A stretch of 34,285 bases of DNA from Gemmatimonadales bacterium (GTDB lineage: Bacteria > Gemmatimonadota > Gemmatimonadetes > Gemmatimonadales > JACORV01), in the NCBI GenBank assembly GCA_030697825.1, contig JAUYOW010000035.1, positions 1 through 34,285 on the forward strand. The letters are read 5' to 3'. The translations under genes and the position numbers were made by a program. This document shows positions 26,153-29,776 of the stretch, in pieces. Each line of letters begins with the position of its first letter. Within the stretch, counting starts at the first letter, position 1. The notes below the pieces were generated by a model. That model searched no databases and was not told the DNA's origin. It was given only the letters and a program-made list of their open reading frames with translations.

Positions 26153-26226
26153 CGATCCGGGGTGGCGCTGGACATCGCGGGCGAGGCGAGGAATGTTCTT
26201 CCGGTGAGGACCAAGGCGAGGTGCGT

Positions 26227-26694
26227 ATGCCCGTCCAACGCTTGAAGGAGTTCCTCGACGCTAACGGCGTCAAGTACGTCGAGATCAGCCACTCGCCGGG
26301 CTACACCGCGCAGGAGCTGGCCGCCGCGGCGCACGTCCCCGGCAAGGAGTGGGCGAAGACCGTCGTCGTGAAGGTGGACGGCCGGCTGGCGATGGCGGTG
26401 CTGCCCGCCTCGTCGAGGGTGATCCTCGACCTGCTGCGGCAGGCGACCGGCGCCAAGAACGTCGAGCTCGCGACGGAGCGTGAGTTCGCCGATCGGTTCC
26501 CCGGCTGCGAGCTGGGCGCGATGCCGCCCTTCGGCAACCTCTACGACATGGACGTCTTCGTCGAGGAGCGGCTCGCGAATGACGAGGAGATCGCCTTCAA
26601 CGCGGGCACGTACACCGAGGTGATCAAGCTCGCCTACCAGGACTACCAGCGGCTGGTGAAGCCGAAGGTCCTCAAGTTCGCGACGACGCACTGA
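26227..26694 (+). CDS. YbaK/ProX-type aminoacyl-tRNA deacylase
   Basis: A single YbaK/aaRS-associated domain of 155 residues from ATG 26227, preceded by GAGG at 5 nt. Motifs are YTAQELAAAAHVPGKEWAKT ending in the conserved Lys, GAMPPFGNLYDMDVFVEE, and IAFNAGTYTEVIKLAYQDY. Family members hydrolyse mischarged tRNAs: YbaK clears Cys-tRNA(Pro), and relatives clear Ala-tRNA(Pro) or other species. Which tRNA this one edits cannot be read from the sequence. Its position just ahead of a cysteine-controlled operon is notable, but the promoter of that operon lies after this stop codon. Confidence 0.85.
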   Translation: MPVQRLKEFLDANGVKYVEISHSPGYTAQELAAAAHVPGKEWAKTVVVKVDGRLAMAVLPASSRVILDLLRQATGAKNVELATEREFADRFPGCELGAMPPFGNLYDMDVFVEERLANDEEIAFNAGTYTEVIKLAYQDYQRLVKPKVLKFATTH

Positions 26695-26698
26695 GGCC

Positions 26699-26734
26699 TT
26701 GACCGCCGTCGGAGCCGCCGTTAAGTACCATCGT
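26699..26734 (+). promoter_or_regulatory. Promoter of the cysteine leader/operon
   Basis: TTGACC (26699-26704) is a near-consensus -35. After 16-17 nt comes a weaker -10 (TTAAGT at 26721 or TAAGTA at 26722). The predicted transcription start falls at or within one or two bases of the leader ATG at 26735, and no Shine-Dalgarno precedes that ATG, so the leader mRNA is probably leaderless. The -35 lies 5 nt after the YbaK-like stop. Confidence 0.6.
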
Positions 26735-26848
26735 ATGATCGATTGTTCCCTTTCACTGCCGGTCCAGCTGTGCGGGTGCTGCACCTGCTGCTGTTGCCCT
26801 GCCCCGACGGGAGTGGGGACCGGCTCGTGGGGGATGCGCGCTGTGTAG
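26735..26848 (+). CDS. Poly-cysteine leader peptide (attenuator)
   Basis: A 37-codon ORF, from ATG to TAG, whose product contains LCGCCTCCCCPAPTG. Codons 13, 15, 16, 18, 19, 20 and 21 (26771-26797) are Cys, seven of nine, and codon 4 is Cys as well. It lies between a promoter and an intrinsic terminator directly upstream of a cysteine biosynthesis operon. This is the layout of amino-acid leader peptides such as those of trp and his: ribosomes stall at Cys codons when Cys-tRNA(Cys) is short. Leaderless poly-cysteine leader ORFs that sense cysteine are known from mycobacteria; here the ORF is coupled to an obvious terminator. The peptide itself is not expected to have a further function. Confidence 0.8.
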   Translation: MIDCSLSLPVQLCGCCTCCCCPAPTGVGTGSWGMRAV

Positions 26849-26893
26849 GCGAGCATCGCCGCTAGAAAGAGCAGAGGCAACCGGCCCACCTCC
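26810..26893 (+). promoter_or_regulatory. Candidate antiterminator pairing
   Basis: Three 4-bp blocks pair in register: GGAG (26810-26813) with CTCC (26890-26893), TGGG (26814-26817) with CCCA (26885-26888), and CCGG (26820-26823) with CCGG (26881-26884), with bulges of one C on the right strand and GA on the left. The left strand lies inside the leader ORF just after the Cys run, and the right strand includes nearly the whole 5' arm of the terminator. The two structures therefore exclude each other. A ribosome stalled on the Cys codons would leave the left strand free. A competing short stem CCCC (26802-26805) with GGGG (26815-26818) could form after normal translation. Confidence 0.6.
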
Positions 26894-26914
26894 GAGTCAT
26901 CGAGGTGGGCTTTT
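26884..26914 (+). terminator. Intrinsic terminator before cysM (attenuator)
   Basis: GCCCACCTC (26884-26892) and GAGGTGGGC (26902-26910) form a perfect 9-bp GC-rich stem with a 9-nt loop, followed directly by TTTT (26911-26914). It ends 5 nt before the GGAGGAGG ribosome site of the cysteine synthase gene. It lies downstream of a complete leader ORF rather than right after the previous gene, which fits attenuation. Confidence 0.85.
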
Positions 26915-26932
26915 CATTTGGAGGAGGGGCGC

Positions 26933-27910
26933 GTGGCGGGCAGTCTCGCCGGAGCGACGCACCAGGCACTGACCGTCCCCGGCCGGCGCGAGCCGGCGCT
27001 GTGGGGGCTCGTCGGGAACACCCCGATCATTCCGCTCGAGCCACCGGAGGGTCCCGGGTCCGCCCGGCCCGCGCTGCTCCTCAAGGCGGAGTGGTTCAAC
27101 CCGGGCGGCTCGGTGAAGGACCGCCCGGCGCGGGAGATCCTGCGCAGCGGGCTCGCGATGGGCGCTCTGCCGCAGCGGCGCCTGCTCGACTCGTCCAGCG
27201 GCAACACGGCCGTCGCCTACGCGACGCTCGGCGCCGCGGCTGGGATCGGCGTGACGGTGTGCGTGCCCGCCAACGCCTCGCGGGCGCGACGCAACCAGCT
27301 CCGCCTCCTCGGCGCGGAGGTGGTCGAGACCGACCCGCTCGAGGGGAGCGACGGCGCCATCCGCCGCGCCCGGGAGCTCGCCGCCGCCGAGCCCGAGCGC
27401 TACTGGTACGCCGACCAGTACAACAACCCCGCGAATCCTCGGGCGCACGAGCGCACGACGGGTCCCGAGATCTGGCGAGACACGCGCGGCCGAATCACCC
27501 ACCTCGTGGCGGGCGTGGGAACGAGCGGGACGCTGGTCGGTGCGGGACGGTTCCTGAAGGCGCGGCGCGCGGACATCCGCCTCGTCGCCGTCCAGCCGGA
27601 GGGCCCGCTGCACGGCCTCGAGGGGCTCAAGCACCTGGCGACGGCGATCGCCCCCGGCATCTACGACCCCTCGATCGTGGACGAGACGGTGTTCGTGGCG
27701 ACGGAGGCCGCGGAGGCGAAGGTCCGCCAACTCGCGCGCGAGCGGGGAGTCTTCGTCGGCTGGTCCACGGGCGCGGCGCTCGTCGCGGCGGACCAGGTGC
27801 TCGCGCGCGCGGGCGCGCCGCGCGGCGGGCCGCCGGTCGTCGTGGCGATCGCGCCCGACGGTGGCGCCTCGTACCTCGCCGACGAGCGTCGCCTGCTCGG
27901 GGAGCCATGA
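26933..27910 (+). CDS. cysM: Cysteine synthase, CysM-like (sulfur-carrier type)
   Basis: A PLP enzyme of 325 residues. The start GTG 26933 is chosen because GGAGGAGG lies just upstream; a TTG at 26918 would put that site inside the gene. Motifs are LVGNTPIIPL, the PLP-Lys motif WFNPGGSVKDRP, DSSSGNTAVAYATLGAAAGI, the phosphate-binding loop GVGTSGTLVGAG, and STGAALVA. The middle (GLKHLATAIAPGIYD) resembles CysM of the mycobacterial CysO pathway, which uses O-phosphoserine and thiocarboxylated CysO as sulfur donor. The next two genes supply the Mec peptidase and the carrier-activating fusion, which supports that role. The ATGA overlap with the next gene indicates coupling. Confidence 0.9.
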   Translation: MAGSLAGATHQALTVPGRREPALWGLVGNTPIIPLEPPEGPGSARPALLLKAEWFNPGGSVKDRPAREILRSGLAMGALPQRRLLDSSSGNTAVAYATLGAAAGIGVTVCVPANASRARRNQLRLLGAEVVETDPLEGSDGAIRRARELAAAEPERYWYADQYNNPANPRAHERTTGPEIWRDTRGRITHLVAGVGTSGTLVGAGRFLKARRADIRLVAVQPEGPLHGLEGLKHLATAIAPGIYDPSIVDETVFVATEAAEAKVRQLARERGVFVGWSTGAALVAADQVLARAGAPRGGPPVVVAIAPDGGASYLADERRLLGEP

Positions 27911-28344
27911 GCGTGCGGATCGCCCCCGGTGTGCTGGCCGAGATCCGGCGGCACCTCGCCGCGGCGTACCCGAGCGAGGGGTGCGGCTTCCTGCTCGGCA
28001 CGCGGGGACCAAACGGCAACGTCGTCGTCGACCGCGAGCTTCCGGTCCCTAACCAGCGGGCGGCGGATGGCGGTGAGCGCACGCGCTACCTCATCGCGCC
28101 CGACGACTTCCTCACGGCCGAGCGAGAGGCGCGGCGGGCCGGCCTCGTAGTGGTGGGCACGTACCACTCTCATCCCGACGTGCCCGCGCGCCCCTCGGCG
28201 TACGACACCGAGCACGCCTGGCCGTGGTGGTGCTACCTCATCGCGTCGGTCGCCGGCGGCGACGTGCGCGAGGAGCGAGTGTGGGAGCTGCGCGACGATC
28301 GAAGCGGTTTCGTGGAACGCGAACTCGAAGTGAAGGAGTCATGA
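27907..28344 (+). CDS. mec: JAMM/Mpn+ metallopeptidase, Mec-like
   Basis: The 145-residue product carries a complete JAMM motif: Glu24 in YPSEGCGFLLG, then HSHPDVPARPSAYD with His87, His89, Ser97 and Asp100 (HSH-x7-S-x2-D), a zinc site. In the CysO pathway Mec cleaves the CysO-cysteine adduct after the carrier diglycine and frees cysteine. The start overlaps the cysM stop as ATGA. In this operon the carrier is part of a longer fusion, so this peptidase might also mature the carrier; that is an inference. Confidence 0.92.
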   Translation: MSVRIAPGVLAEIRRHLAAAYPSEGCGFLLGTRGPNGNVVVDRELPVPNQRAADGGERTRYLIAPDDFLTAEREARRAGLVVVGTYHSHPDVPARPSAYDTEHAWPWWCYLIASVAGGDVREERVWELRDDRSGFVERELEVKES

Positions 28345-28345
28345 T

Positions 28346-29776
<1,431 letters not shown>

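Follow-up and report, generated by a model that had tools for sequence, protein, structure and literature searches.

The attenuators of E. coli trpL and of other proteobacterial amino-acid operons combine a leader peptide carrying regulatory codons with four pairing strands (strands 1 to 4) and an intrinsic terminator, and operate through kinetic competition. According to the accessible part of a 2010 survey, leader peptide systems had, to its authors' knowledge, been demonstrated in no phyla other than Proteobacteria and Actinobacteria until the survey itself added Firmicutes (PMC2965389). For cysteine, several designs have been described. Leaderless poly-Cys ORFs of mycobacteria are reported, in the available portions of the sources, to act at the level of translation (Canestrari et al., 2020, via PMC9031893, PMC13236596), while the candidate cys leaders of actinobacteria place runs of Cys codons 5' of cys operons and, in the excerpt available, have no conserved terminator hairpins (PMC1262725). 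Another example is uORFC-8-2, located before cysS in Rhodobacterales, which the available text presents as a predicted ribosome-mediated attenuator that relies on Cys codons and has an intrinsic terminator (PMC8632094). In the open-licence literature, as far as it was accessible, attenuation in Gemmatimonadota was not recognised, which is weak as evidence of absence.

The locus described here lies upstream of a cysM gene in a stretch of 34,285 nucleotides from a Gemmatimonadales bacterium (contig JAUYOW010000035.1, positions 1 to 34,285), referred to as the window. From its sequence and from folding models, the region is very probably a cysteine-responsive, ribosome-controlled transcription attenuator of the cysM operon, kinetic, of the trp type and probably leaderless, and the best reading is that it is one of a family in Gemmatimonadota. 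Like E. coli trpL, the cysM leader has regulatory codons, strands 1 to 4, a terminator and the same behaviour in masked folding; unlike trpL, it lacks a Shine-Dalgarno sequence, has its ATG at the predicted 5' end of the mRNA, would sense cysteine, and matches no Rfam leader family at the gathering threshold. Like the cysteine-responsive mycobacterial ORFs it is a poly-Cys leader 5' of cysteine genes, here probably leaderless and presumed to respond to cysteine, but those ORFs are described as attenuating translation in another phylum, whereas a terminator-like hairpin follows each leader found here. Runs of Cys codons upstream of cysteine genes are likewise common to the actinobacterial leaders, which differ, in the excerpt available, by the absence of conserved terminator hairpins and by runs placed near the stop codon (PMC1262725). 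The window leader resembles uORFC-8-2 in combining Cys codons with an intrinsic terminator; the latter precedes a tRNA synthetase gene, has tandem Cys codons at positions 14-15 and belongs to Alphaproteobacteria, and a leaderless start is not mentioned in the available text (PMC8632094). Cys-run leaders were already known; the leaderless start of a poly-Cys leader and a switch based on an intrinsic terminator have so far been encountered separately in the parts of the literature surveyed.

The cysM leader and its surroundings

The elements of the locus, all on the forward strand, are the following.

26699 to 26704, forward: -35-like hexamer TTGACC, a pattern match immediately following the upstream gene's stop codon
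26722 to 26727, forward: -10-like hexamer TAAGTA, a pattern match 17 nt past the -35 and separated from the ATG by 7 nt
26735 to 26848, forward: leader ORF, MIDCSLSLPVQLCGCCTCCCCPAPTGVGTGSWGMRAV and stop, 37 codons from translation, without Shine-Dalgarno
26744, forward: Cys4 codon of the leader, from translation
26758 to 26765, forward: strand 1, GCCGGTCC, perfect 8-bp partner of strand 2
26771 to 26797, forward: regulatory Cys codons 13, 15, 16 and 18-21, from translation
26810 to 26826, forward: strand 2, 5' strand of the antiterminator, beginning about 11 nt past the last Cys codon
26880 to 26893, forward: strand 3, 5' arm of the terminator and 3' strand of the antiterminator, from pairing analysis
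26902 to 26910, forward: strand 4, 3' arm of the terminator, from the inverted repeat
26911 to 26914, forward: TTTT of the terminator U-tract, read in the sequence
26920 to 26924, forward: Shine-Dalgarno GGAGG of cysM, 5 nt past the TTTT
26933 to 27910, forward: cysM-like cysteine synthase with PALP domain and GTG start (PF00291, E 3.3e-62)
27907 to 28344, forward: JAB/MPN-domain metallopeptidase (Mec-like), presumed second gene of the operon (PF14464, E 3.5e-24)
28346 to 29776, forward: ThiS-ThiF-rhodanese fusion, presumed third gene (PF02597, PF00899, PF00581)

Translation gives eight Cys codons among the 37 of the leader ORF, which stands directly 5' of cysM. No SD-like motif occurs from -18 to -4 of its start, and a Shine-Dalgarno sequence was found in 0 of the seven cysM leaders identified in this analysis, the window included. 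In six of the seven, with G242 as the exception, TTGAC lies 29-30 nt 5' of the ATG, and the window's arrangement of -35, -10 and ATG recurs in relatives. Because of this placement of TTGAC and the lack of a Shine-Dalgarno sequence, the cysM leader is probably leaderless, the mRNA of the window leader starting at about its ATG. In a wider set of 23 leaders, 20 have TTGAC 29-33 nt upstream of the start, as opposed to 130 of 22832 ATGs in all the DNA examined, and none has an SD-like motif. The more specific pattern TTGAC-N16..18-TAAGTA-N5..8-ATG occurs five times in 287 genomes of the order, three of these being the very Cys leaders from which the pattern was written; in the two remaining occurrences the ATG begins a long frame, antitoxin-like and methyltransferase-like as named from reading, and the reversed control pattern gave two matches.

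Two observations concern the neighbouring genes. The third gene (28346-29776) encodes a ThiS-like sulfur carrier with an internal GG, fused ahead of a ThiF-type activating enzyme and a rhodanese. The gene upstream of the leader (26221-26694) encodes a protein with a tRNA_edit domain (aminoacyl-tRNA editing), a suggestive neighbourhood for a leader that would sense Cys-tRNA.

Predicted terminator and antiterminator strands

The original prediction had placed a perfect 9-bp stem followed by TTTT at 5 nt before the cysM ribosome site, and this structure is present as described: GCCCACCTC (26884-26892) pairs with GAGGTGGGC (26902-26910) across a loop of 9 nt. The terminator scan of the window did not list the hairpin at 26884-26910; the loop of 9 and the U-tract CTTTTCATTT lie outside the stated limits of that scan. 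The U-tract is short and weak, and this, with the missing call by the scan, counts against the attenuator reading.

The same prediction proposed that the 5' arm can alternatively pair over 12 bp with a strand inside the leader ORF, after the Cys codons. Both the position of that strand and the count of 12 are right, but the best pairing consists of three blocks with bulges (GGAG at 26810-26813, (U)GGG at about 26814-26818 and CCGG at 26820-26823, against 26880-26893) and not of one continuous helix. The antiterminator duplex has an energy of -21.2 kcal/mol, or -19.3 in a narrower segment, and the terminator duplex of -20.3. A further pair, absent from the original prediction, joins strand 1 to strand 2 over a perfect 8 bp (26758-26765 with 26817-26824).

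At the gathering threshold, Rfam returned only tRNAs in the window, with no T-box, riboswitch or leader family, and no match in seven related loci. In the window and its relatives, strands 2 and 4 resemble Shine-Dalgarno sequences (GAGGAGGT, GGAGGTGG) and strand 3 resembles the anti-Shine-Dalgarno of 16S rRNA, given as CACCTCC in the accessible part of PMC10783764; a bearing of this likeness on ribosome pausing is possible.

Folding with a masked ribosome

The leader was folded with the positions covered by a ribosome masked, under the assumption of a footprint reaching 12 nt downstream from the start of the A-site codon. Before the 3' arm exists, pairing of strand 2 with strand 3 in the window reaches 0.85-0.87 with the ribosome at Cys18-21, and it is 0.00 at the stop codon and likewise without a ribosome. 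This agrees with the expectation that stalling frees the antiterminator strand and normal translation does not, and the antiterminator is thus competitive before the 3' arm is transcribed, which had been named as the point on which the prediction could fail. A stall at Cys13-16 gives only 0.00-0.07, so the first Cys codons do not free strand 2. When the full leader including the 3' arm is folded, the terminator prevails under every mask (0.93-0.94).

The E. coli trp leader, treated by the same method, gives 0.71 at the Trp codons and 0.01 at the stop codon, and its terminator stands at 0.96-0.98 at equilibrium. Since the terminator wins at equilibrium both in the window and in E. coli trp, the switch must be kinetic; and because the E. 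coli trp leader behaves alike, the equilibrium result does not refute a kinetic switch. Across all seven cysM leaders, pairing of strands 2 and 3 is 0.69-0.99 (best value over the last Cys codons) versus 0.00 at the stop codon. In the wider set, all 23 leaders show more upstream pairing of arm 3 with the ribosome stalled on the regulatory codons than with it at the stop codon (means 0.81 and 0.31), a difference that is expected to be positive for shuffled sequence as well.

cysM leaders in related genomes

The genome of the window measures 3.37 Mb and is 98% complete. Of 288 genomes of the order, 41 carry CysM orthologues at E <= 1e-85, which occupy 42 places; the upstream DNA was inspected at all 42, at least four of which have little of it (L010, L152, L153, L155). 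A Cys-rich leader ORF followed by a hairpin with a T-run is present at seven of these places: G000 (the window), G018, G412, G274, G401, G229 and G242. The geometry of a classical attenuator, which had been claimed for the window, is therefore present there and kept 5' of cysM in six other species with diverged sequences, as exemplified by the leaders MQNIRVPMTEMVSTCCCPQTSEEVGPG and MSITRCCRCPKPLCCRRGEFAATAGGMT. The terminators of the seven fall into distinct sequence groups (CCCACCTCC, CCCGCCCACC, GGTCGCGAAT). Each of the seven has a strand that lies 7-17 nt past its last Cys codon, ahead of the stop codon, and pairs with the 5' arm of the terminator, so that every leader-bearing place keeps both terminator and pairing. 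Loss of the pairing where the terminator is kept, the second point on which the original prediction could fail, is therefore not seen among them. Certain other cysM genes, located behind an rrf2-like gene, are preceded by a terminator but by no Cys leader, which is a different arrangement.

In a tree of 36 CysM proteins, the seven leader-bearing ones fall within one clade of nine (support 91/87). The CysM of G022 and G223 lie inside this clade, yet no such leader precedes their cysM, and the distribution fits one origin of the leader and two losses. Among the 36 genes, with labels given from reading, 18 stand directly behind a rhodanese-like gene, five behind an rrf2-like gene with an intervening terminator, and six have none of leader, rhodanese-like or rrf2-like gene, G385 with its 92 nt of upstream DNA being one of these six. 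At L011-L015 an rrf2-like regulator gene is followed by a terminator shortly before the cysM start, with little room for a promoter; this is possibly another regulated terminator.

A nucleotide search with the window leader over 395 genomes of the phylum returned, beyond the leader itself, only short matches at chance level; L112 and L118, matches of the leader search, look on reading like ordinary coding sequence. A separate match to the Cys-leader model (L183, G022:C31:15505-15629, E = 5.6e-11) lies 5' of a ferredoxin-like gene. As read, it has no start codon in the Cys frame, and the cysM of G022 is on a different contig; L183 is perhaps a decayed copy of the Cys leader.

Comparison with shuffled and permuted sequences

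The whole window leader folds better than its shuffles (z = -3.3). Its individual elements stand out less: pairing of strands 2 and 3 in the window alone is no better than in dinucleotide-shuffled versions of that segment (p = 0.49), and the stall/stop switch alone gives p = 0.14. The elements named in the original prediction are thus present, but the evidence from the window by itself is weaker than was implied.

It is the relatives, rather than the window alone, that carry the case for an attenuator. Over the seven leaders including the window, with terminator arms set by hand for the pairing tests, the duplex of strands 2 and 3 compared with dinucleotide shuffles gives a Fisher p of 9e-6, with p < 0.01 individually in four of the seven, and the stall/stop switch gives a Fisher p of 4e-5; because the seven rows are related species, these combined values overstate independence. 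When cognate strands 2 and 3 were permuted among the seven leaders, 95 of 5040 permutations were as good. A synonymous-codon null for strand 2 over the same leaders was not rejected (Fisher p = 0.17). This null is considered too strict, as the C-terminal residues of the leader are likely dictated by the RNA, and its survival still weighs against a strong antiterminator claim.

Candidate leaders for other amino acids

A covariance model built from the 3' half of five Cys leaders was used to search 287 genomes of the order and 394 genomes of the class. The model also returned, at low scores, Trp, Phe and His leaders of other pathways and a Cys leader before a gene other than cysM, the downstream genes being named from reading their translations. 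These candidates, together with those from direct inspection upstream of trpE and pheA, are the following.

G400, G401, G462 and G224: Trp leaders (WWW) before trpE
G180: Trp leader (WWW) before trpD
L198, L184, L271, L281, L284 and L285: Trp leader loci with terminators before trpE or trpD
G034: Phe leader before pheA, the locus being also a PF00800 match
G107 (L283): His leader MIVCLAHAHHYHIPGHLPESEASG upstream of a hisG-like gene, with TTGAC 30 nt 5' of the ATG
G138 (L282): Cys leader MSRTECACCCCRQAAPREGRLGADCT upstream of a siroheme-synthase-like gene, in a different family of the class
L242, L245, L249, L251, L252, L256, L260 and L262: Phe leader loci

Both kinds occur in one genome, G401, where the Cys leader of cysM and the Trp leader of trpE have nearly identical terminators. 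Phe-rich ATG leaders with terminators were found 5' of prephenate dehydratase (pheA) genes at the eight Phe loci listed, out of 30 inspected; L239, possibly a real Phe leader but without an ATG start as read, stands outside this count, and L241 and L275 were dropped as doubtful. A direct upstream scan of 30 trpE loci found no Trp leader, and nine further trpE regions yielded one WWW leader with a GTG start (G004, L271, from the window's own family). In the genome of the window itself, trpE (L263) has no WWW leader and no match to prephenate dehydratase was obtained.

When 96 loci were scanned on both strands for a codon run, a terminator and TTGAC together, five Cys leaders were obtained, all at cysM, and seven Phe leaders, all at pheA, with no mismatch between sensor residue and pathway. 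Several weak model matches (L185, L186, L190, L196, L197, L280, L286, L287) proved on reading to be only terminators or ordinary coding sequence, and the reading of model matches leaves out L187, L189, L191-L195 and the three weakest matches, which have no locus, and covers one region (L278) of G400:C108.

In related bacteria, leaders of this design seem to serve as sensors of tryptophan, phenylalanine and histidine. A broader proposal, which can be put forward only tentatively, is that Gemmatimonadetes possess a home-grown, modular family of leaderless attenuators in which one chassis, its sensor codons swapped among Cys, Trp, His and Phe, has spread to several biosynthetic operons. The chassis, as tentatively drawn, would comprise a TTGAC promoter with the ATG at +1, a run of sensor codons, an antiterminator strand of the GAGGTGG type and a terminator of the CCCACCTCC/GGAGGTGGG type.

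Proposed mechanism and alternative explanations

In the proposed mechanism, transcription would begin at or beside the A of the leader ATG, and a ribosome would initiate on the leaderless mRNA. With ample Cys-tRNA, the ribosome would reach the stop codon and cover strand 2, leaving strand 3 to pair with strand 4, and RNA polymerase would terminate before cysM. When Cys-tRNA is scarce, the ribosome is expected to stall at Cys18-21 with strand 2 free just ahead of it; strand 2 would capture strand 3 ahead of the synthesis of strand 4, and RNA polymerase would proceed into cysM, with read-through extending to the JAB peptidase and the fusion of sulfur carrier and activating enzyme. If no ribosome is present, the helix of strands 1 and 2 may sequester strand 2.

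The same leaderless poly-Cys design is reported to serve translational control in mycobacteria (Canestrari et al., as far as available), and strand 3 (CCACCTCC) is complementary to the Shine-Dalgarno region of cysM, so a stall could instead free the cysM ribosome site, with the hairpin not acting mainly as a terminator. Folding, however, gave no sign of control by sequestration of this site: the predicted unpaired fraction of the cysM Shine-Dalgarno is 0.54 with the terminator allowed and 0.42 in the antiterminated form, hardly any shift. As accessibility barely changes and a terminator-like hairpin with a T-run follows all seven cysM leaders, while the cys leaders reported for mycobacteria have no conserved terminator hairpins in the excerpt available (PMC1262725), the mycobacterial route is unlikely here. 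That hairpin in seven of seven leaders also speaks against control by Rho, in which translation of a real leader would shield Rho sites; such control has been proposed for actinobacterial cys leaders lacking terminators (PMC1262725, in the same excerpt), and for the window it has the smallest probability of the explanations considered.

It could also be argued that the hairpin is a constitutive terminator of the upstream gene and the Cys-rich ORF a product of chance, with cysM expressed from its own promoter or by partial read-through. The chance-level pairing in the window alone would suit this explanation, as would the genomes in which an rrf2-like gene and a terminator precede cysM. Nevertheless, the 5 nt between T-run and Shine-Dalgarno leave no space for a promoter, 190 nt separate the end of the upstream gene from the hairpin, seven species share the combination of Cys leader and terminator, and elsewhere the sensor residue agrees with the pathway, all of which make a constitutive terminator very unlikely. 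A kinetic attenuator of transcription, read by a ribosome translating the Cys codons, is accordingly the preferred explanation, at the confidence given at the outset.

Implications

If the attenuator reading holds, ribosome-controlled transcription attenuation would extend to a phylum for which none was found described in the accessible literature. The candidate leaders would also represent natural variants that sense different amino acids on a similar scaffold, and the evolutionary swapping of sensor codons and antiterminator strands therefore becomes testable. Finally, this reading predicts a regulatory use of leaderless translation in Gemmatimonadota.
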